Assembly (NCBI GenBank): GCA_035498035.1
Contig: DATKAN010000038.1
Location: forward strand, 1-64,000
Direction of reading: 5' to 3'
Length of the DNA: 64,000 nucleotides
Origin: Nitrospiria bacterium
GTDB taxonomy: Bacteria; Nitrospirota; Nitrospiria; JACQBZ01
Under the pieces are notes generated by a model. That model saw only the letters and a list, made by a program, of their open reading frames with translations. It made no database searches and was not told the origin of the DNA. Position 1 is the stretch's first letter; the number at the start of each line of letters is the position of its first letter. The position numbers were made by a program, and so were the translations under genes. Below are positions 17,054 to 56,251 of this stretch, piece by piece.

Positions 17054-18580
17054 ATGATGACTCAAAAAGGGGATCGAAAATTTCCGGCGACGATGGCCAC
17101 GCAGCATCCGGACCATGCCAACGTCCCGTACTGGAAGAAAAACGGCGAGGCCTTCATCAACACCCAGGAGGAGGTCGAGGAATGCATCAGCGCGTTTCGC
17201 GACCTCCGTTGCCAGGAGTACATGTGGGATTGGGAGGGAAAGTACGTCGACGAGGCCGTCGTGGACAAGCTCGTCTCGAGCTATTACGACTTCTTCAAAC
17301 GTCTCCATCTCGGAAGAGACGTCTTCCTGACCTTCCGTCTCCCGAACATCTGGCACGAGAAGGGCTACCGCCTGGCCCGCGCCTACATGGGGATCCTGAC
17401 CTTCGAGGACCTGACCTCGGATCTGGGCTTCGCCCATCCGCCGGTCTTCGAGGTGATCCTGCCGATGACCGACGAGGCCAAAAAACTGATCCATCTCCAG
17501 AGAACCTTCGGGCAGGTGGCGCAGCTCAAGAACGCGGCGTTCGGCAGCCGGAAAGGCATCGATTACCTCCGGGTCATCCCCTTGATCGAGGGCATTTCGG
17601 AGCTGACCGGTTCCCGGAAGATCCTGCACGATTATCTGGAGCTCCATGAAAAAGAGTACGGGACGCGTCCGGACTACCTGAGGCCTTTCATCGCGCGGTC
17701 CGACCCGCCCTTAAACGCCGGCCTGGTCCCGGCCGTGGTCGCCGCGAAGATCGCCTTATCGGAATATTACAAGTTCGAGGAAGAGTCGGGCGTTCCGGTC
17801 TCTCCGATCATCGGCGTGGGGTCGCTGCCGTTTCGCGGCGGGCTGGCCCCCGACCGGGTGAAGGATTTCCTGGCCGAGTACCCCGGGGTCCGCACGGTCA
17901 CGATCCAGTCGGCCTACCGCTACGACTATCCCCTCGACGAGGTGAAGCGGTCGCTCCAATTTCTCAACCGCCATCTGGCGAAGGGCCGTCCCCGGATCTA
18001 TTCGCCCGAAGAAATCCGGGAAGGGGAGGTCCTCAGCGGAATCTTCGCGAAACATTACCAGCAGACGGTCGAGGGCCTGGCCGGAATGGTCAACAAGTTT
18101 TCGAAGATCATCCCGCAGCGTCGGGAGCGCATGCTCCATATCGGGCTGTTCGGCTATGCGCGGGGCCTCGGCGGCAAACGCCTCCCTCGCGCGATCGGAT
18201 TCACGGCGGTGCTCTATTCCCTGGGCATCCCTCCGGAGCTGATCGGAACCGGCCGCGGCTTGCGCGAGGTCCGGGAGAAGGGACTGACGGAGGCCTTGAA
18301 AGGATTCTATCATAACCTGGAGAAGGACCTGATCCGGGCCGGCCATTTTCTCAACAAAGAAAACCTGAACTTCCTGGCCCGACGGTCCCCGGCCTGGCGG
18401 GGCGTCGAGAAAGACGTGGAGGGGATCGAAAAATTTCTGGGCCGCGAGCTGGGGCCCGAGACGGTCGAGCATTATCTCCACCGAAACCTCGTCTCGAGCG
18501 CCTATCTCCTATGGCAGTCCGGCAAGATCCCGTCCGACCGGATCCTGGAAGCCGCGAAGATTCGGCGGAGTATTGGGTAG
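17054..18580 (+). CDS. ppcA: Phosphoenolpyruvate carboxylase, archaeal type
   Basis: Adds bicarbonate to PEP to make oxaloacetate, an anaplerotic CO2-fixing step. At 508 residues it is the compact archaeal-type enzyme, not the ~900-residue bacterial Ppc. The family signature is the opening PATMATQHPDHANVPYW, followed by AYRYDYPLDEVK and later KIIPQRRERMLHIGLFGY. This type occurs sporadically in bacteria. Its substrate is bicarbonate, which fits the inorganic-carbon transporter at 50-56 kb. No ribosome binding site precedes the ATG. Confidence 0.93.
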   Translation: MMTQKGDRKFPATMATQHPDHANVPYWKKNGEAFINTQEEVEECISAFRDLRCQEYMWDWEGKYVDEAVVDKLVSSYYDFFKRLHLGRDVFLTFRLPNIWHEKGYRLARAYMGILTFEDLTSDLGFAHPPVFEVILPMTDEAKKLIHLQRTFGQVAQLKNAAFGSRKGIDYLRVIPLIEGISELTGSRKILHDYLELHEKEYGTRPDYLRPFIARSDPPLNAGLVPAVVAAKIALSEYYKFEEESGVPVSPIIGVGSLPFRGGLAPDRVKDFLAEYPGVRTVTIQSAYRYDYPLDEVKRSLQFLNRHLAKGRPRIYSPEEIREGEVLSGIFAKHYQQTVEGLAGMVNKFSKIIPQRRERMLHIGLFGYARGLGGKRLPRAIGFTAVLYSLGIPPELIGTGRGLREVREKGLTEALKGFYHNLEKDLIRAGHFLNKENLNFLARRSPAWRGVEKDVEGIEKFLGRELGPETVEHYLHRNLVSSAYLLWQSGKIPSDRILEAAKIRRSIG

Positions 18581-47779: not shown

Positions 47780-49465
47780 TTATTTTCGGCTTTCCGTGGG
47801 GGAGGCCACCAGCGATCTCTCCTCCGAACGGAGCGGATGATCCACCGCATGGTGAGTCGGTTTTCTCCGGACGGATCGGGCCAGGCTCAAGACGATGGGG
47901 ACGGCCATCACGGCCACGCCGGCCATTCCGGACCAGAAGAAATACAAATGAGACGATTGGAGCAGCGGCATCCCCACGATGACGGCGTCGAACACGTAGT
48001 GGGCCACGATGACCGTGATCAGACCGTAACGGACGAAGAAATAGCCGGAGACCAGGCCGTCCACGGTCAGTTCGATTCCCCGGGTATAAAAGGGCATTAC
48101 GGAATAGTCCGAATGGGCGAATCCCCAGATCAGGGCTGGGACGAAGAGGGCCAGGGCTCGCGACCGAAAATATTTAATCATCAGGGCGATCGCGAAGAAC
48201 CGGTAGATCAATTCCTCCGAGACGGAAGACCGGAAGGCGTTGGTGATGGGTTCCAGGAAGGGAAGCCAGGTGCCCAGCATATTGGAATAGCTGCTGGGAA
48301 CGGGCGACCAGACATCGAAGTAGCGTTGGCCCACCAGATAAAAAACCGTCATATAACCCAGGCTGATCGACGCCAGCAGGTAGCCCATGAACAGGGCGCG
48401 CGTGAAATCCCGGGAAAGCCAGCCGCGTCTTCCAGTGATCTGATCCACCCGCTTGGCCGTGAAAACTTCCCGGCCGACGGCCCATCCGGCGACGGCGAAC
48501 AAAAACGTCACAACACCCGACCAGAGGGTCGCTTCGATCGTGTCGAAGATCCATCCGCCCCAAAACGTGTAGAGGGGGGAATCGGTGGAGTACGAGGACC
48601 GGATGTTGGGAATGGCATTGATCTCCCCGAGAACTTTCGCCGTCACCATGGCCAGGGCCAGGTACAAGGCCCCTTTCCAGGGGATGGTCCTGTATTTATG
48701 GTGGGTCAGAAATATGACCAGCGCGGACAGGGAAAGGAAAACCGTCAACAATCCGCTCAGCCTCGCGAGCAGTTCCCCCTTCGAGCTTTCCCCCTCGTAC
48801 ATCTCCGCAAATTTTTGGGGAACGCTGATCGATTGCTCATACCCGTCCACCGCGTCCCCGTGAACGGCGAGGGTCATCAGCAGTTGGGCCTCTCCGAGGG
48901 AGGGCGTGGACGCCTTCCATGTAAAGATATGGTCGGTCCTTTTCTCCCTTTGCTTGGTCGAGGCGTTGATCAGGTCGTAGCTCAAGAAATCAACGTCCTT
49001 CTGATTCTGGATAAAGGTTTCGGCCAGCTCCAGGGCCCGGCTTTGTTTAAGGCGGGCTCCCTTCGTATCCTCCGGAATGTAATGGTTAAACGCGATGATC
49101 CGGCCTTTGGGGTTTACATAAACTCTGAACTCCTCGTACTGAAGTTCCTTCAAGAAGCGGACCTTCCAATACCGGAGGGGCAGATCTTGCGCCAGGGCAT
49201 TGAAGCGGTCCATCCCCATCGATCGCTGAAGGTAAAGTGCGGCGTCGCTATCCTCGGAAAAAAGGACGGTTTCCACATAACCGTCCAGGTTGAATCCCTG
49301 CGCTTCGAGGAATTGCCGTGCCTCGCGTAATGCGTGATTTCTTGATATGTGGGAATTCATCGTGGCCGTCGGAGAGGCGTCGTCGTAGAACCTCAGAAAG
49401 ACGAACAGGGCGATGACCGCCAAGAGAGCGATGAAAATGTCTTTTTTTTCTAATGAGGTTTTCAT
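47780..49465 (-). CDS. CPBP-family intramembrane glutamic protease
   Basis: Multi-spanning membrane protein of 561 residues. The C-terminal third carries the CPBP/Abi (Rce1-like) signature: EELIYRFF with Glu417 and Glu418, then FAHSD and HYVFDAV, the glutamate/histidine set of the family. The long N-terminal half is extracytoplasmic with one anchoring helix (FIALLAVIALFVFLRF). ATG 49465 is preferred over an upstream GTG. Relatives process prenylated proteins or act in bacteriocin self-immunity, but the substrate here is unknown. Divergent from the mpsC-dab operon. Confidence 0.8.
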   Translation of the reverse strand: MKTSLEKKDIFIALLAVIALFVFLRFYDDASPTATMNSHISRNHALREARQFLEAQGFNLDGYVETVLFSEDSDAALYLQRSMGMDRFNALAQDLPLRYWKVRFLKELQYEEFRVYVNPKGRIIAFNHYIPEDTKGARLKQSRALELAETFIQNQKDVDFLSYDLINASTKQREKRTDHIFTWKASTPSLGEAQLLMTLAVHGDAVDGYEQSISVPQKFAEMYEGESSKGELLARLSGLLTVFLSLSALVIFLTHHKYRTIPWKGALYLALAMVTAKVLGEINAIPNIRSSYSTDSPLYTFWGGWIFDTIEATLWSGVVTFLFAVAGWAVGREVFTAKRVDQITGRRGWLSRDFTRALFMGYLLASISLGYMTVFYLVGQRYFDVWSPVPSSYSNMLGTWLPFLEPITNAFRSSVSEELIYRFFAIALMIKYFRSRALALFVPALIWGFAHSDYSVMPFYTRGIELTVDGLVSGYFFVRYGLITVIVAHYVFDAVIVGMPLLQSSHLYFFWSGMAGVAVMAVPIVLSLARSVRRKPTHHAVDHPLRSEERSLVASPTESRK

Positions 49466-49571
49466 CGGATGGGCGCTTCCTGGAGGCACAATTTAAGTGT
49501 ATCACGTCGTCGACGTCCGTCAATCCGATCTCCCCCCTCGAAAGTGGGTTTTTCGGTTCATTTCGCGGCGG

Positions 49572-49600
49572 TTGCGCATCGGTTACGATTTTATTATAAT
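49572..49600 (+). promoter_or_regulatory. Promoter for mpsC and possibly the dab operon
   Basis: TTGCGC at 49572-49577, 17-bp spacer, perfect TATAAT at 49595-49600. It is 32 bp before the mpsC start codon. Confidence 0.7.
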
Positions 49601-49632
49601 GACACCACAGGATACGAACGGGAGCCTTTTGA

Positions 49633-50010
49633 ATGAAACGAAGCAAGGGACAGGTCGAGTCCGAAATCAGCAACGCCATGATTCAATTCGAAAAGGATTA
49701 CATGGGTCGGGGTCCGAAGGAGAGCAAAACCTGTATTATCGACGATATGATCCTTGTGCGCCTCAAAGGAGTTCTGACCCCGGCCGAGCAACAGCTGGCC
49801 AAGAATCCGAAAGGGACGGACCTGATCAAGGAGATACGCTCCAACCTCCTGGAACAGGCCCGGGGATTGTTGACCGAGGTGATCGAAAAAATTACGGGGC
49901 TCAAGGTGGTCAGCCTCCACACCGACATCAGTACAAAAACAGGGGAGCGGGTCATTATTTTTTCATTGAACGAAAATCTGGAGGAGCGATCCCGCAACAA
50001 TAATACTTGA
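49633..50010 (+). CDS. mpsC: MpsC / DUF2294 family protein
   Basis: Soluble protein of 125 residues of the DUF2294 (MpsC) family: VESEISNAMIQFEKDYMGRGP, ILVRLKGVLTPAEQQLA, the helix LIKEIRSNLLEQAR and the C-terminal DISTKTGERVIIFSL. In Staphylococcus the mpsABC operon links this protein with a NuoL-like subunit (MpsA) and a DUF2309 subunit (MpsB). The same three families appear here in the order C-A-B. Its molecular role is not defined, but the context points to the inorganic-carbon transport complex. Confidence 0.85.
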   Translation: MKRSKGQVESEISNAMIQFEKDYMGRGPKESKTCIIDDMILVRLKGVLTPAEQQLAKNPKGTDLIKEIRSNLLEQARGLLTEVIEKITGLKVVSLHTDISTKTGERVIIFSLNENLEERSRNNNT

Positions 50011-50052
50011 CCAAGGGACTTGGCCTGGTGTTCAATAATGGAAATGGAAGAT

Positions 50053-50122
50053 AGCCCGAAGGATCCCGCTCCGCCGGATCGGTCGGGCTGTAAGCCGACT
50101 CGGAATGGGTCGGCATTTTTTT
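50053..50122 (+). promoter_or_regulatory. Leader with competing hairpins and intrinsic terminator before dabB
   Basis: First hairpin: AGCCCGA (50053-50059) pairs with TCGGGCT (50083-50089), extended inward by GATCC/GGATC. Terminator: GCCGAC (50094-50099) pairs with GTCGGC (50109-50114), followed by seven T residues to 50122. The 3' arm of the first hairpin can also pair with AGCC at the start of the terminator stem, so the structures are mutually exclusive. Only 23 bp then remain to the dabB start. This arrangement fits attenuation; no known riboswitch class was recognised. Confidence 0.6.
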
Positions 50123-50145
50123 GTCTTTAGGTCCCGCGACGACTG

Positions 50146-52782
50146 GTGACGATGCTCCACGACTACCCTTTGCTCATACTGCTTGCGCCCCTGGCCGCGG
50201 CCCTTCCGACCGCGTTTCCGTCCGCCTGGATCGGCCGGAGGGCGTACGGGATCGGGGTTCTGGCCCACGTGCTGGCTTTCGGGCTGGCCGTATGGGTCCT
50301 TCGCGAGGTGGGGACGCCCGGCCACGATCCCTTCCGCATTTTCCTCTTTCCCTCCCCCTGGAGCCGCCTGGTCAATTTCGAACTTTCAATCGACCGCCTG
50401 GCCGCCGTGATGATGGTTCTGATCACCGGTATTGGGGCGCTGATTTATCTCTATTCCGTTCGCTACATGCAGTCCGAACGGGGACGCGGATGGTTCCATA
50501 CGCTTCTGGCCCTGGCCGTCTTCGTGCTTCTCTGCATGGTTTCCAGCGCCAATCTGCTGATGCTCTTTGTTTTCTGGCAGCTCTTGAGCTGGATTCTCAG
50601 CCTGCTGGCCTACAACTATTCGCACACGCCCACGGCGCAGGGCGCCTTCCGGACCTTTACGATGCTTCGCCTGGGGGATGTCGCCTTTCTCGCCGGGATC
50701 GTCCTGGCCTACGGTCTCTACGGCACACTCGATTTCGATCCGCTCTTCAGCCGGGCCGCGGGGGATCCGATGCTGTTGTCGCTCTTCGGGCCCGAAAGCG
50801 GGATCGAAGTCGGCGGCCCCACGGTCGTCGCCCTCCTGATTTTTGTCGGGGCCATGAGCAAGTCCGCCCAGTTTCCCTTGCATATGTGGCTGCCCGATTC
50901 CCTCTACGCGCCGACCCCGGTTCATGCCCTTCTGCATGCCGGAATCATCAATGCCGGCGGCTTCCTCCTAAACCGTCTCGCCCCGCTCTACGGCCTCAGT
51001 CCCGCGGTCTTGCATGCGGTCTTCGTCGTCGGCCTGCTCACCGCCCTCCTGGGGGCCTCCATGATGCTGACGCAGAACGACATCAAAAAAACCCTGGGCT
51101 ACTCCACGATCGGGCAGATGGGCTACATGATCATGGAATGCGGCCTGGGGGCCTTCGCCCTGGCGGTCTTTCATCTGATCGCGCACGGGCTGTTCAAGGC
51201 CACGATCTTCCTCCATTGCGGCAACGTGATCCATGCGGCCCGGCTCGATCCGAGGTTTCCGCCGAAAATCGAGACGTCGGAGCCGCCGGACTTTTCGCTC
51301 CTGACCTGGCTGACCGGGTTTACGACGACGCTCATCCTCCCGCTGATCATCCTGCTGGCCGCGCACGGGGTGCTCAACATCACCTTCAGGGACTCGCAGG
51401 GGGTCGTGATCTTCCTGTTCTTCAGCTGGGTCACCTCTTCCCAGGCCATCCTGACGCTCTACCGTTTTCGGGCGGTCGCCTCCCGAAAGGTGGCGGCGCT
51501 CATGCTTCTCACGCTTCTGCTGGTCGTCTCAACTTATCTTCTCGCGGCGGAGGCCTTCACCTATTTTCTCTATCCGGCGCCGGGTCGTGTGTCCGCTTAT
51601 TTCCAGGCCGCCGCATTGCCGGGGGGACTGTTCGATGCCGTGATCCTGGCGACCGCGCTGTTTGTCATTCTGGGATGGACCCTCATCTACGCGAGGAGCC
51701 ACGGACGCTCGATCCGTTTGCCGGAATGGGTCGGCGAACTGCATGTCCGGTTCTATCTTTTCTGCATGAACCGGCTTTACATGGACGCCCTTTTGCTTCG
51801 ACTCGGCCGCCGATTCGCCCGCGCCGCCCGTTGGACGGAACGGAGCCGGCTCTTCGCCCCCGTGCTGTCCCTGATCGCGCTCGGCCTGGTCTGGCCCGCG
51901 TTGGGTCGGGCGGCGGATCTGCCGGCGCCGACCCTGGCGATCTTGGCTGCGTCGGCCCTCCTGCTCCCGCTCTTCCCCTTTCACGGGGTCTATGTCACCG
52001 CCCTGACCCGTCTGCCGGGTTACGGGCCGGTGCTCGTCGCCCTGCTGCTGCCCGCGGCCGGATTCTACGGGCTGGTCCATCTCCTTCCCGATCTTCCGCC
52101 GGAGCTCCTGGGAAATGTGAGCCGGCTGGCCTTGATCGGCGCCCTCTACGGCACATTCAGGGCGCTGATGCAGGACCGACCGAAGCGCCTGACGGCCTAT
52201 GCCGGTCTGGTTTTCTATTCGGTGCTGTGGTGGCATTTGGCCGCGGCCCGAAGCCCGACGCCCCAGGCCGGCGTCTACGCCGGCTCGGCGGCGCTACTCA
52301 CCGGCGGTCTCTTCTTTGCCTTCAATCGCCTGGAGGCGCGGTACGGGGATCTCGGCGCTGATCCGGGAATTGGCCGGATGGGGGGACTGGCTCTGCCGAT
52401 GCCCCGCTTTGCCACGATGCTGGGCTTCCTGGTGATGGCGACCGTTGGCCTGCCGCCCTTCGGCCTATTTTCCGGCTTCATCGGGATGCTGCTCAACCCG
52501 CCCGTCACCCGCTTGATCGAAACGCCCGGGGCTTTGCTGGTCATCCTCCTCGCCTGGTTCGGGGCGTCGTGGTATCTGTTCCGGATGATGCAGCGACTCC
52601 TCTTCGGTCCCCATCGGCCGGAAATCCTCTATGAAGACCTCCGCCCGACCGAAGTCGCCTCCTTCATGATCGTGCTGGCGTTATTGATCGGCTTGGGCCT
52701 TGCGCCGCACGGCTCCCTCGACGCCTCGTTTCTTGCCGACGGTTATCGCACCGCGATGGAATGGAGCCGATGGAACCCGTAG
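50146..52782 (+). CDS. dabB: DabB/MpsA: NuoL-like membrane subunit of inorganic-carbon uptake complex
   Basis: Membrane protein of 878 residues homologous to the antiporter-like subunits of complex I. The proton-channel core includes KSAQFPLHMWLPD near residues 240-252 and HALLHAGIINAGGFL just after, with further helices beyond. It is longer than usual DabB proteins: after about residue 600 come helices ending with GLPPFGLFSGFIGMLL, resembling the end of a second NuoM/L-type domain. It would use proton or sodium flow to drive DabA-mediated hydration of CO2. It overlaps dabA by 22 bp. The start may be GTG 50146 or ATG 50152. Confidence 0.88.
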   Translation: MTMLHDYPLLILLAPLAAALPTAFPSAWIGRRAYGIGVLAHVLAFGLAVWVLREVGTPGHDPFRIFLFPSPWSRLVNFELSIDRLAAVMMVLITGIGALIYLYSVRYMQSERGRGWFHTLLALAVFVLLCMVSSANLLMLFVFWQLLSWILSLLAYNYSHTPTAQGAFRTFTMLRLGDVAFLAGIVLAYGLYGTLDFDPLFSRAAGDPMLLSLFGPESGIEVGGPTVVALLIFVGAMSKSAQFPLHMWLPDSLYAPTPVHALLHAGIINAGGFLLNRLAPLYGLSPAVLHAVFVVGLLTALLGASMMLTQNDIKKTLGYSTIGQMGYMIMECGLGAFALAVFHLIAHGLFKATIFLHCGNVIHAARLDPRFPPKIETSEPPDFSLLTWLTGFTTTLILPLIILLAAHGVLNITFRDSQGVVIFLFFSWVTSSQAILTLYRFRAVASRKVAALMLLTLLLVVSTYLLAAEAFTYFLYPAPGRVSAYFQAAALPGGLFDAVILATALFVILGWTLIYARSHGRSIRLPEWVGELHVRFYLFCMNRLYMDALLLRLGRRFARAARWTERSRLFAPVLSLIALGLVWPALGRAADLPAPTLAILAASALLLPLFPFHGVYVTALTRLPGYGPVLVALLLPAAGFYGLVHLLPDLPPELLGNVSRLALIGALYGTFRALMQDRPKRLTAYAGLVFYSVLWWHLAAARSPTPQAGVYAGSAALLTGGLFFAFNRLEARYGDLGADPGIGRMGGLALPMPRFATMLGFLVMATVGLPPFGLFSGFIGMLLNPPVTRLIETPGALLVILLAWFGASWYLFRMMQRLLFGPHRPEILYEDLRPTEVASFMIVLALLIGLGLAPHGSLDASFLADGYRTAMEWSRWNP

Positions 52783-55700
52783 AGCCCAAACACTACAACG
52801 ACACCCAGCGGATGCGGCTCCGGGGGGTGATCCTGATTGCCGGCGAGATCGTCGCCCCGTACTGGCCGATGCGAACCTTTGTCCATCACAATCCGCTGCA
52901 TGCACTGGAAGATCTTCCTTTCGGGGAGGCGGTACGGCGCGGGCGGGAACTTCTGGGCGGAAACGGTTATCTCTCCAACGCGCTTTTTCGGGATTATTTC
53001 CGCTCGGGCCGGATCCTTCCTCGCCAGGTCGACGCCGCTCTCAGGCCGATGGCGCAGGACCGAAAGGTGGCGCTGGGCCGCAGGGAAGTCGGGCACATCG
53101 ATGTGCTCCGGGCCCGTCTGCTTCGGGGGATCTCCGACCCCGCGCCCCTCTCGGAAGGCGGCGCGCTCGAGGCCCGGATCGGCCGCGGCGCGGATCGGTC
53201 CCTGGTCGACGCGCTGGCCGAGCGGCTCGCGCCCCTGCAGGATTTGCCGGGTCACCCGGAGCCCGTCGTCCCCGCGCCCCCTGGCCGGAGTTCGACCCTG
53301 GCGGACTGGTGCGACCGCGCCCTCGGCGCGAAGACCACCGAGCTCATCGATCGGGAATTGATCAAATGGTGCGAGGCCTTCTTGGACGAAGGGCACGCCG
53401 CCTGGTGGATGCCCGGTCGGGATAGGGGATTCTACGGCGCGTGGAAATGGCTGGCCGGGCGGGAATGGTCCCCCTGCGCGATCCCGGACAGCCGAAGTAA
53501 AATCGCCCGTCTGCCGGACCCGCCGGAAGATGCGCTGCTGGATTCGCTCGACGCGCTCGGAATTCCATCCGAGGCCTGGCCGGACTATCTTTCGCGGCAC
53601 CTGGCGGCGCTGCCCGGCTGGGCCGGTTTCATTAAGTGGCGTTCGGAGCAGGCCGACTATGAGTGGCAGCAGGTCTATCCAGCCGATCTGGTCCAGTACC
53701 TCGCCGTGCGGCTTTGGTATGAGCGGGAATTGGTGCGGCAGGCCTGCCGGGAGGAACTGGGGGTCGACGGGAATCTGAAGTCCATTTCCGAAGCGGTCGC
53801 GCGGAACGCGGGCGCCATGGAAAAAGCAGCGGGGCTTCGCGAAGCGTCCCTTCCGCGCGGGGATTCCCGCCACCGATCCTCCGCCTGGCGGCTGAAGTCG
53901 CTCGCGGACGCGCTGGAGATCGATGTCCCCGTTTTAATCGAAACCCCGCCCGAGACGCTGAAGGTCCTGCTGGAATGGCTCGACGCCTTTCCGGAGTCGG
54001 AGCACGGGCCGGTGTGGCTGGAGGCGTTGGAGGCCGGGTATCAGGAGCAATTAATCGATAAACTCCGGTCCAATCTATCCGGCCCGCCGCCGGCGCCGAC
54101 GACCGTTCGTCCTCAAGCGCAGGCGGTCCATTGCATCGATGTAAGGTCCGAGCCGTTCCGGCGCCATTTGGAGGCGGTCGGGGATTATGAAACCTACGGC
54201 TTCGCGGGTTTCTTCAGCGTCTTCATCCGGTACCGAGCCCTGGGCCATCTCCACGAGACAGACCAGTTTCCCGTGATCATGAAGGCCAAGAACGTCGTGC
54301 GCGAAGTTCCCCGGACCTATCATGGGCAGCGGCTCTCCAGGCACCAGGCCGGGACCAGGCTGCTCCAGGCGGGGCATGAGCTGCTTCATGACCTGAAGGA
54401 AAATGTGGTCACCCCTTATGTGGCGGTGGAATCGCTCGGCTGGTTTTACGGTTTACCCTTGCTCGGCAAAACCGTCTTCACCGCTTGGTATCAAAATTGG
54501 ACCGACTGGCTCCGGCGCACCTTCGTGCCGACGGTCGCCACCGCCGTGACCGTGGACAAGCTGTTGCGGGAGGAGGTCGAGGAAATGCTGGCCGCCGAGC
54601 AGCGCTCCGTCATCCGCCGTGCGCTCCAGGAACGGTTCGGGGACCGCGATCTGAATCTTTCCCTCGAGCGGCTGGATTATCTGCGCAAACGGGCCCTGGA
54701 TGAACCTTATTCGGGACAGCATCCCCCGAAAGGATCGCTCACGGCCGGGGAGGAGGCGGACTTTGTCCGGGCGCTGCGCGATCAGTACCGGATCAACCCG
54801 GGCGGCGCCTTCGCCCGCATGGAGCGCATCACCCGGATCGGCTTCACGCCCGGAGAGCAGGCCTTCACGGTCGAGACCGCTCTCCGGATGATGGGACTGA
54901 CCCGGAACTTCGCCCGGCTCGTCCTCTTCTGCGGCCACGGCGGAACGACCGAGAACAATCCCTTCGAGGCGGCGCTGGACTGCGGCGCCTGCGGCGGGAA
55001 TTCGGGTCAACCGAATGCGCGGGTCCTGGCGGCCATGGCCAACAAACCGCTGGTCCGTGACGCGCTGGCCCGGAACGGCATCGTCATTCCCCAGGATACC
55101 TACTTTATCGCGGGCCTGCACGATACGACGACGGACGCCGTTCGGCTCTTCGACCTTGAGGATCTTCCACACACCCACCTCAAAGATCTGCTCCGTTTAA
55201 GCCGCGACCTCGAAGAGGCCGGCCGGCGGACCAGCCAGGAGCGATGCGCTCGGTTTCCGGAGATCGCGGCCATTCTCCCGCCGGGCCGGGCGACGCGGGA
55301 GGCGCGCCGGCGGAGCGGCGACTGGAGCGAGGTCCGGCCGGAGTGGGGGCTGTCGGGCAACGCCGCCTTTCTCGTCGGCCGCCGCGAGTTGATCCGGGGG
55401 ATCGATCTTGGAGGCCGGGTCTTTCTTCATTCCTACGACTACCGCGACGATCCCGCCGGCCGGCTGCTGGAGATCGTGATGACCGGTCCGCAAGTCGTCG
55501 GGGAATGGATCAACATGGAGCATTATTTCTCCACGGTCGATCCCGAAGTGTACGGCAGCGGGAGCAAAATTTACCACAACGTCGTCGGCCGCTTCGGGGT
55601 GATGTCGGGCCCCCAGAGCGATCTTCGCACGGGCCTGGCCCGGCAGACCGTGATGGACGGGCCGCGGCCGTTCCATGAGCCGGTCCGGATGTTCACGCTG

Positions 55701-55874
55701 ATCGAGGCGCCCCGGGATAGGATCATCCGGATCATCGGACGTCAGCGGTTTCTTCAGCATCTGTACGACAATCAATGGGTGCACCTGGCCGCGCTTGATC
55801 CGGAGGAAAAAATGTTCTATCGTTATGTTCCGAGGCAGGGATGGACGCCCTTCGGAGTCGAAGGCCGTCCCTGA
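52761..55874 (+). CDS. dabA: DabA/MpsB (DUF2309): beta-carbonic-anhydrase-like subunit
   Basis: Cytoplasmic zinc subunit of 1037 residues of the DUF2309/UPF0753 family. The predicted zinc and active-site residues are Cys458 and Asp460 in CIDVRSE, His726 in CGHGG and Cys741 in DCGACGG. The 15-residue His-Cys spacing equals that of characterised DabA. The N-terminal PYWPMRTFVHHNPLH motif is also typical of the family. It converts CO2 to bicarbonate vectorially, coupled to DabB. The proximity to mpsC, dabB and a PII-like gene makes the assignment firm. Confidence 0.94.
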   Translation: MEPMEPVEPKHYNDTQRMRLRGVILIAGEIVAPYWPMRTFVHHNPLHALEDLPFGEAVRRGRELLGGNGYLSNALFRDYFRSGRILPRQVDAALRPMAQDRKVALGRREVGHIDVLRARLLRGISDPAPLSEGGALEARIGRGADRSLVDALAERLAPLQDLPGHPEPVVPAPPGRSSTLADWCDRALGAKTTELIDRELIKWCEAFLDEGHAAWWMPGRDRGFYGAWKWLAGREWSPCAIPDSRSKIARLPDPPEDALLDSLDALGIPSEAWPDYLSRHLAALPGWAGFIKWRSEQADYEWQQVYPADLVQYLAVRLWYERELVRQACREELGVDGNLKSISEAVARNAGAMEKAAGLREASLPRGDSRHRSSAWRLKSLADALEIDVPVLIETPPETLKVLLEWLDAFPESEHGPVWLEALEAGYQEQLIDKLRSNLSGPPPAPTTVRPQAQAVHCIDVRSEPFRRHLEAVGDYETYGFAGFFSVFIRYRALGHLHETDQFPVIMKAKNVVREVPRTYHGQRLSRHQAGTRLLQAGHELLHDLKENVVTPYVAVESLGWFYGLPLLGKTVFTAWYQNWTDWLRRTFVPTVATAVTVDKLLREEVEEMLAAEQRSVIRRALQERFGDRDLNLSLERLDYLRKRALDEPYSGQHPPKGSLTAGEEADFVRALRDQYRINPGGAFARMERITRIGFTPGEQAFTVETALRMMGLTRNFARLVLFCGHGGTTENNPFEAALDCGACGGNSGQPNARVLAAMANKPLVRDALARNGIVIPQDTYFIAGLHDTTTDAVRLFDLEDLPHTHLKDLLRLSRDLEEAGRRTSQERCARFPEIAAILPPGRATREARRRSGDWSEVRPEWGLSGNAAFLVGRRELIRGIDLGGRVFLHSYDYRDDPAGRLLEIVMTGPQVVGEWINMEHYFSTVDPEVYGSGSKIYHNVVGRFGVMSGPQSDLRTGLARQTVMDGPRPFHEPVRMFTLIEAPRDRIIRIIGRQRFLQHLYDNQWVHLAALDPEEKMFYRYVPRQGWTPFGVEGRP

Positions 55875-55909
55875 AGACAAACCCGTCTTAATCAGGAGGA
55901 GTATTGCGC

Positions 55910-56251
55910 ATGACCGGCCTCACGCTTCATCCGATGAAAGAGATCCGGATCGTCATTCAAGGCGAACACGTGAAATTTGCGACCGATTTGCTGGACGCCA
56001 TCAAGGCGACCGGCTACACAATCATCCACAATATCTCGGGCAAGGGCCACCACGGTTTCCACACCGCCCATCCGATGTTCAACGAGATGGACAGCCTGGT
56101 GATGCTGATGACCGTCGTCCCGGAGGAGAAGGTGGAGCCGATCCTGGCCGGACTGAAGCCGGTTTTCGACCGCTACACCGGGGTCATGTTCGTCTCGGAC
56201 GTCGCCGTCAGCCGCGCCGAATATTTTTCGGGGCAGGAAGGGCAGAAGTAA
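55910..56251 (+). CDS. PII-like signalling protein of the dab operon
   Basis: Small trimer-type protein of 113 residues of the PII superfamily: MKEIRIVIQGEH at the start of strand one, a variable T-loop region NISGKGHHGFHTAHPMF and VPEEKVEPILAGLKPVFDRYTG near the end. No uridylylated tyrosine or C-terminal CxxC motif is apparent. SbtB-like and CPII-type relatives next to bicarbonate transporters bind adenine nucleotides and regulate uptake. AGGAGGAG precedes ATG 55910; a TTG six bases upstream is less favoured. Confidence 0.82.
   Translation: MTGLTLHPMKEIRIVIQGEHVKFATDLLDAIKATGYTIIHNISGKGHHGFHTAHPMFNEMDSLVMLMTVVPEEKVEPILAGLKPVFDRYTGVMFVSDVAVSRAEYFSGQEGQK

Follow-up and report, generated by a model that had tools for sequence, protein, structure and literature searches.

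In a 64,000-nt stretch of contig DATKAN010000038.1 (assembly GCA_035498035.1) from a Nitrospiria bacterium, referred to here as the window, the genes mpsC, dabB, dabA and a gene for a CPII-like PII protein lie on the + strand and were considered in a preliminary description to form one inorganic-carbon uptake operon with a leader attenuator. We found that mpsC and dabB are separated by an 83-nt leader RNA, termed element A, which belongs to a conserved and covarying family. On balance, we favour the explanation that this leader gates transcription of the dab unit according to carbon status and that its partner is most likely MpsC. The genes, the active-site residues, the covarying RNA structure, the gene association, the promoter and the terminator were established computationally.

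A covarying leader RNA between mpsC and dabB

Element A (50039..50121; this and all following window positions are on the + strand unless indicated otherwise) scored 85.5 bits against its covariance model, with a genome-wide E of 1.4e-17. The window sequence itself served as a seed of the model, and it is the single strong copy in the source genome. According to the fold prediction before the 3′ arm of the terminator exists, a short clamp, P0, closes the element at its outer end, with 50045-50047 (UGG) paired to 50095-50097 (CCG). The clamp is followed by a predicted first purine loop (AAG/AAG, 50048-50050 and 50092-50094), the stem P1 (50051-50059 with 50083-50091), which was placed by the minimum free energy (MFE) fold and by covariation, a second purine loop (AG at 50060-50061, GG at 50081-50082) and an inner stem (50062-50066 with 50076-50080). 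The terminator scan located an intrinsic terminator, GCCGACTC-GGAAT-GGGTCGGC plus AUUUUUUU, at 50094..50121, with the stem at 50094-50114 preceding the U run, and this terminator is conserved in the family. Across the family, P0 is followed by a 3×3 purine loop that mostly reads RAG/ARG, a stem of 9 bp, a 2×2 purine loop that mostly reads AG/GG, an inner stem whose apical loop varies, and the terminator. The MFE of the whole leader was −40 kcal/mol (z −3.6).

Covariation supported this structure. When 15 copies were aligned by sequence only, 10 pairs showed a change on both sides, which was reached in 0 of 500 shuffles, and slid controls fell well short of it. In an alignment of 23 copies from five operon types, two-sided change was observed at 16 of 26 pairs (53 cells); again none of 500 shuffles reached that level, and slid controls gave at most 10 pairs and 17 cells. 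This larger alignment takes in the icd and acl copies, which are more divergent and in part visibly misaligned in the inner stem. For P1, two-sided change was found at 12/16 pairs across the 23 sequences. A search with the Rfam 15 covariance models gave no match to the leader at E values up to 1 at 17 loci; CsrC (E 1.4) and snoU61 (E 1.9), which appeared at relaxed thresholds, were rejected as chance matches. Element A is like the Rfam 15 riboswitch and attenuator families in being a 5′ leader with a conserved structure on a terminator platform, but it matches none of them. No paper that ties a leader RNA to DAB, SbtA or MpsC was found, most subscription literature lying outside the search. 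As judged from alignments and database comparison, element A is a structured leader RNA family that is absent from Rfam 15 and previously undescribed.

The CCG that makes up the 3′ strand of P0 also belongs to the terminator 5′ arm, and since clamp and terminator share these bases they would be mutually exclusive. P0 was predicted to be in place in 5/5 copies that were folded without the terminator 3′ arm, and its outermost pair is CG, UG or UA across the family where paired. An alternative antiterminator, in which the 3′ half of P1 pairs directly with the 5′ arm of the terminator (GUCGGGCU/AGCCGAC), was rejected in favour of P0, as P1, which is far more stable, would have to give way.

Conceivably, element A could be an ordinary, unregulated terminator that limits read-through from mpsC and owes its conservation to shared ancestry, and its position directly behind mpsC in the window, where terminators are common, is in agreement with this idea. 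However, a promoter (TTGACC-18-TTCAAT, 50007..50036) that overlaps the mpsC stop codon is located between mpsC and the element. In addition, conservation and covariation extend to the P1 hairpin and the purine loops, which lie ahead of the terminator, and in other classes sbtA, icd and mpsC are likewise preceded by element A. A plain terminator is therefore improbable. Attenuation by ribosomes translating a leader peptide is far more improbable still: the window leader does contain a short ATG frame, but no leader reading frame is conserved across the element A family, and this possibility was rejected.

Terminator scan and promoter placement gave the order mpsC, second promoter, leader, intrinsic terminator, dabB. 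A promoter-like site upstream of mpsC (TTGCGC-17-TATAAT, 49572..49600) was detected in a pattern scan of the window; the pattern, which was written after the site had been seen, occurred once in the window and in 0 of 100 shuffles. With two promoters and an intervening terminator, mpsC and dabB-dabA-cpII appear to be at least partly separate transcription units, with read-through from the former into the latter possible. The single operon of the preliminary description is thus too simple, even though all four genes share a strand (49633-56251), and the putative leader attenuator that it mentioned sits between mpsC and dabB rather than ahead of all four genes.

Element A precedes carbon-supply genes in Nitrospirota

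The leader sequence is common to relatives upstream of dabB even where the neighbouring genes differ. A first covariance model, built from six sequences including the window copy, was used to search 270 class genomes. It gave a single strong copy (E about 1e-8 or better) in each of 15 genomes; 13 of these copies precede dabB and two precede sbtA/PII. In the latter two genomes (G008 and G017), element A and mpsC are followed by the gene of a bicarbonate transporter, identified by Pfam as Sbt_1, together with a PII-like gene. Such a pairing is also found in cyanobacterial SbtA-SbtB; the transporter is unrelated to DAB, and the arrangement occurs in these relatives and not in the window. The set of copies was extended by a search of 396 genomes of the phylum and by follow-up searches. 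This added two genomes (G286 and G326) that each carry two copies, located before an mpsC-mpsC pair and before dabB-dabA, four genomes in which element A precedes a monomeric NADP isocitrate dehydrogenase gene (icd), and one copy before an ATP-citrate lyase subunit, both enzyme assignments being confirmed by Pfam. Altogether, Nitrospirota yielded 24 strong copies, located before dabB (15), monomeric icd (4), sbtA/PII (2), mpsC (2) and ATP-citrate lyase (1), and no strong copy away from carbon-supply genes or mpsC was found in the Nitrospirota genomes searched. The promoter seen at the dab unit of the window recurs 2-11 nt before element A in 21 of the 24 copies, and two of the three exceptions are inside the mpsC-mpsC-dab cluster.

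With the final model, real copies scored at least 47 bits and other matches about 30 bits or less, the exception being a degenerate copy that G008 carries upstream of dabA (33 bits). The weak matches of about 30 bits or less (G021, G247, G308, G063, G078 and others) resemble plain terminators and were treated as noise; among them is the 28-bit match in G308, which lies just before a nifH-like gene (L115, about 1501-1606). The sole search reaching beyond Nitrospirota was a scan of about 85,000 genomes with an IUPAC pattern. Its four matches were all in Nitrospirota and all at dabB or PII-sbtA; the exact pattern misses divergent copies, and neither G286 nor the icd copies were matched.

Two further leaders resemble element A. 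Element B, a second hairpin-plus-terminator leader with a 3×3 loop, 9 bp and a 2×2 loop, stands in tandem behind element A in five genomes (L033:4583-4682, L079:4771-4872, L040:7046-7146, L074:8184-8279 on the minus strand, and L113:4136-4226), and 15 of its 31 predicted pairs showed two-sided change across the five sequences. Element C is a different conserved leader (GUAGGGU...GCAGUACAAGCC plus a terminator) between divergent mpsC and dabB genes in Nitrospiraceae-like genomes (f2), from which element A is absent. Its copies are at L093:384-499, L098:361-476 and L048:4202-4315, and, on the minus strand, at L094:2359-2476, L096:344-459, L097:295-410, L047:13631-13745, L050:9805-9920 and L095:583-692. 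As in element A, the two internal loops of B and C are 9 bp apart and are followed by the terminator. It may be speculated from these small alignments that A, B and C are read by one common recogniser. This related loop spacing would suit the idea that the leader is used by another RNA-binding protein or a general factor, and that its signal is growth state or redox rather than carbon. We regard that idea as unlikely, as the location of 24/24 strong copies at carbon-supply genes and mpsC argues for a carbon-specific signal.

Proposed gating of the dab unit and the candidate partner

In the mechanism that we favour, the nascent leader would fold into a long hairpin closed by the short outer clamp (GG/CC). 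As the clamp uses bases of the terminator 5′ arm, clamp and terminator would exclude each other. A partner gripping the two purine loops, 9 bp apart, would hold the clamp in place and allow the RNA polymerase to pass, while without the partner the terminator would form and the pump would be off. Carbon status would be the signal, given that relatives carry this leader ahead of operons for SbtA, isocitrate dehydrogenase, ATP-citrate lyase and MpsC. Once made, DabA-DabB would use the proton gradient to convert CO2 into bicarbonate, and post-translational tuning would come from the CPII-like protein; elsewhere, the same leader would set the expression of enzymes of the reverse tricarboxylic acid (TCA) cycle by carbon status. 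The switching, its direction, its signal, MpsC as the partner and the role of the PII-like protein are what we infer from the sequences. In ribonucleic antiterminator (RAT)-type sites, as read by BglG/LicT, a hairpin with internal loops overlaps the terminator 5′ arm and is recognised by a small protein encoded nearby. The layout of element A is likewise that of a looped hairpin overlapping the terminator 5′ arm, with the proposed reader encoded nearby, whereas no sequence relation to RAT sites is claimed and MpsC is not BglG-like.

MpsC is the leading candidate for the partner, a tentative assignment. The mpsC gene is the one most often common to element A loci and is linked to most copies, in the arrangements mpsC-A-dab, mpsC-A-sbtA, mpsC-A-acl, A-icd-mpsC and A-mpsC-mpsC-A-dab. 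The order A-icd-mpsC was found in 3/3 testable genomes, in two of which icd and mpsC share a contig end, and in family f9 mpsC lies a few kb upstream. At two loci (L108:7355-10820 and L109:6575-9639, both on the minus strand), two mpsC genes stand in tandem, and element A occurs once ahead of them and once more ahead of dabB-dabA. That MpsC accompanies DAB, as had been described, was borne out by genomic-context comparison, the two being within 11 kb of each other in 25 of 30 class genomes checked. The window mpsC (49633..50010) encodes 125 amino acids and is a full-length DUF2294 protein (PF10057, E 2.2e-41, 140.8 bits, residues 5-113 on profile positions 2-110 of 111). It is small and basic (isoelectric point 8.7), has no relative of solved structure by sequence, and was modelled by AlphaFold2 with a predicted local distance difference test (pLDDT) score of 88 and the topology alpha-beta-beta-alpha-alpha-beta-beta. 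Its size, charge, predicted fold and linkage would fit an RNA-binding regulator. In Staphylococcus aureus, mpsC is dispensable for MpsAB activity and its deletion is without a growth phenotype (PMC6689103), which fits a regulatory role.

Several observations weigh against the favoured mechanism. The best fold matches of the MpsC model, read by us as uL23-like ribosomal chains, were non-significant (best E 6.7e-3, template-modelling score 0.34). The main exception to the linkage is G015, a genome that is 95% complete and has element A with no detectable MpsC (best match 13 bits); G044 and G321 also have element A without MpsC, but these genomes are fragmented or incomplete. Furthermore, MpsC occurs in 198 of the 270 class genomes and element A in about 15, and because MpsC is so much more widespread, their linkage could mean only that both belong to carbon supply. 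As for the RNA itself, P0 has just 2-4 bp and is incompletely paired in some members, and the single acl copy is a weaker match (46.9 bits) whose single-sequence fold is no better than shuffles (z −1.3).

The main rival is a riboswitch, in which the two-loop hairpin would bind a small molecule or ion, such as bicarbonate/CO2, 2-oxoglutarate, citrate or a different metabolite that reflects carbon status; MpsC would then merely be a co-member of the carbon-supply set. We hold this somewhat doubtful, yet nearly as likely as a leader read by MpsC. It would account for the presence of element A in G015 without MpsC, for the conservation of the loop bases in about 10 families while the helices covary, and for a single element serving both uptake and reverse-TCA carboxylation genes, and it is equally compatible with a clamp and a terminator that exclude each other. 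However, almost every copy has mpsC beside it or in its vicinity, none of the Rfam aptamers matches, and in our judgement a plain stem interrupted by two small internal loops is a simple design for an aptamer that binds a metabolite and is more what one expects of a protein-binding site.

The pump and its PII-like protein

The profile searches for DUF2294, Proton_antipo_M, DUF2309 and P-II all gave scores well above the cut-offs. The product of dabA (52761..55874, 1037 amino acids), the sole DabA of the source genome, matches PF10070 (DUF2309) over its full length (897 bits, profile positions 4-747 of 747). Alignment with the solved DabA2 (9rd0, E 6e-110) placed Cys458, Asp460, His726 and Cys741, exactly the residues that had been quoted before, opposite Cys351, Asp353, His524 and Cys539. 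The Zn ligands Cys458, His726 and Cys741 are thus present, and Asp460-Arg462 match the Asp353-Arg355 dyad of DabA2. Alanine substitutions at the Zn-site and dyad positions of DabA2 impair growth at low CO2 (PMC13144422). In fold family, Zn ligands and dyad, the protein is like DabA of the DAB/DAC pumps Halothiobacillus DAB2 (9rd0) and Staphylococcus MpsAB, but it is about 170 amino acids longer, mostly at residues 516-699; the window dab unit also differs from these pumps in the leader RNA that precedes and is proposed to control it. In the f9 genomes G023 and G050 (L081 and L080), dabA appears to be in overlapping or stop-containing pieces, which may reflect a pseudogene or an assembly error.

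The dabB gene (50146..52782, starting at GTG 50146 or ATG 50152) encodes a NuoL-like antiporter subunit of 878 amino acids that matches Proton_antipo_M (PF00361, 1e-57), Proton_antipo_N (PF00662) and DabB2 (9rd0_B). The Lys/His residues of the proton path are, by motif, at the places expected for a DAB/DAC pump (K239, H260, H264, K314/315, H343, H347 and K351). Atypical for such a pump is a NuoM-like C part (residues 598-857; 51823..52782, boundary approximate) behind the NuoL-like N part (residues 1-365). This NuoM-like module is fused to DabB in the window's genus and in other families, is a separate gene of about 435 amino acids between dabB and dabA in G032, G013, G017, G018 and others, and is absent from some relatives and G286. 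Since there is no lysine among its invariant columns, it is probably a structural or interface module and not a second proton channel.

The cpII-like gene (55904..56251) starts at TTG 55904 or, after AGGAGG, at ATG 55910. Its product matches P-II (PF00543, 1.4e-23), and its sole PDB matches at E ≤1e-3 were the CPII entries 5d4l/5d4n of Thiomonas intermedia (E 5e-32; 50/104 residues identical, 48%) and not GlnB/GlnK, which marks it by homology as specifically CPII-like. PII proteins of the CPII type bind ADP/AMP and respond to bicarbonate. Both proteins adjoin genes of carbon supply, the partner being DAB in the window and a carboxysome locus in the case of CPII.

Judged by homology, the pump itself is a genuine DAB-type CO2-uptake system of an already known kind. 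The source genome carries an ATP-citrate lyase citrate-binding domain, and the organism therefore probably fixes CO2 via the reverse TCA cycle. A survey has already reported inorganic-carbon transporters or several carbonic anhydrases in reverse-TCA Nitrospirae (PMC10880623). The proposed DAB-type CO2 uptake, accompanied by MpsC and a PII protein, here of the carbon type, was supported for this organism, which has ATP-citrate lyase; the leader RNA family and the second DabB module had been overlooked. The window further contains an Rce1-like CAAX protease gene divergent from mpsC (47780-49489, minus strand) and, elsewhere, a PEPcase_2-type phosphoenolpyruvate carboxylase gene (17054-18580), whose product consumes bicarbonate.

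Implications for carbon regulation

Inorganic-carbon sensing and regulation in chemoautotrophs are poorly known, and none of the searchable papers describes an RNA element or a function of MpsC in inorganic-carbon regulation. It is possible, and we put this forward tentatively, that the Nitrospirota leader family is a switch of a carbon-supply regulon that joins uptake (DAB, SbtA) and reverse-TCA carboxylation (icd, acl) and is read by MpsC, or else the first riboswitch for inorganic-carbon status. The analysis points to a single RNA of 83 nt and to a handful of candidate partners and signals, offers natural variants from operons of five types, and supplies a concrete hypothesis for DUF2294. 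If MpsC reads the switch, DUF2294 would be a new family of RNA-binding regulators, and this would explain why mpsC accompanies these genes and yet is dispensable for transport.

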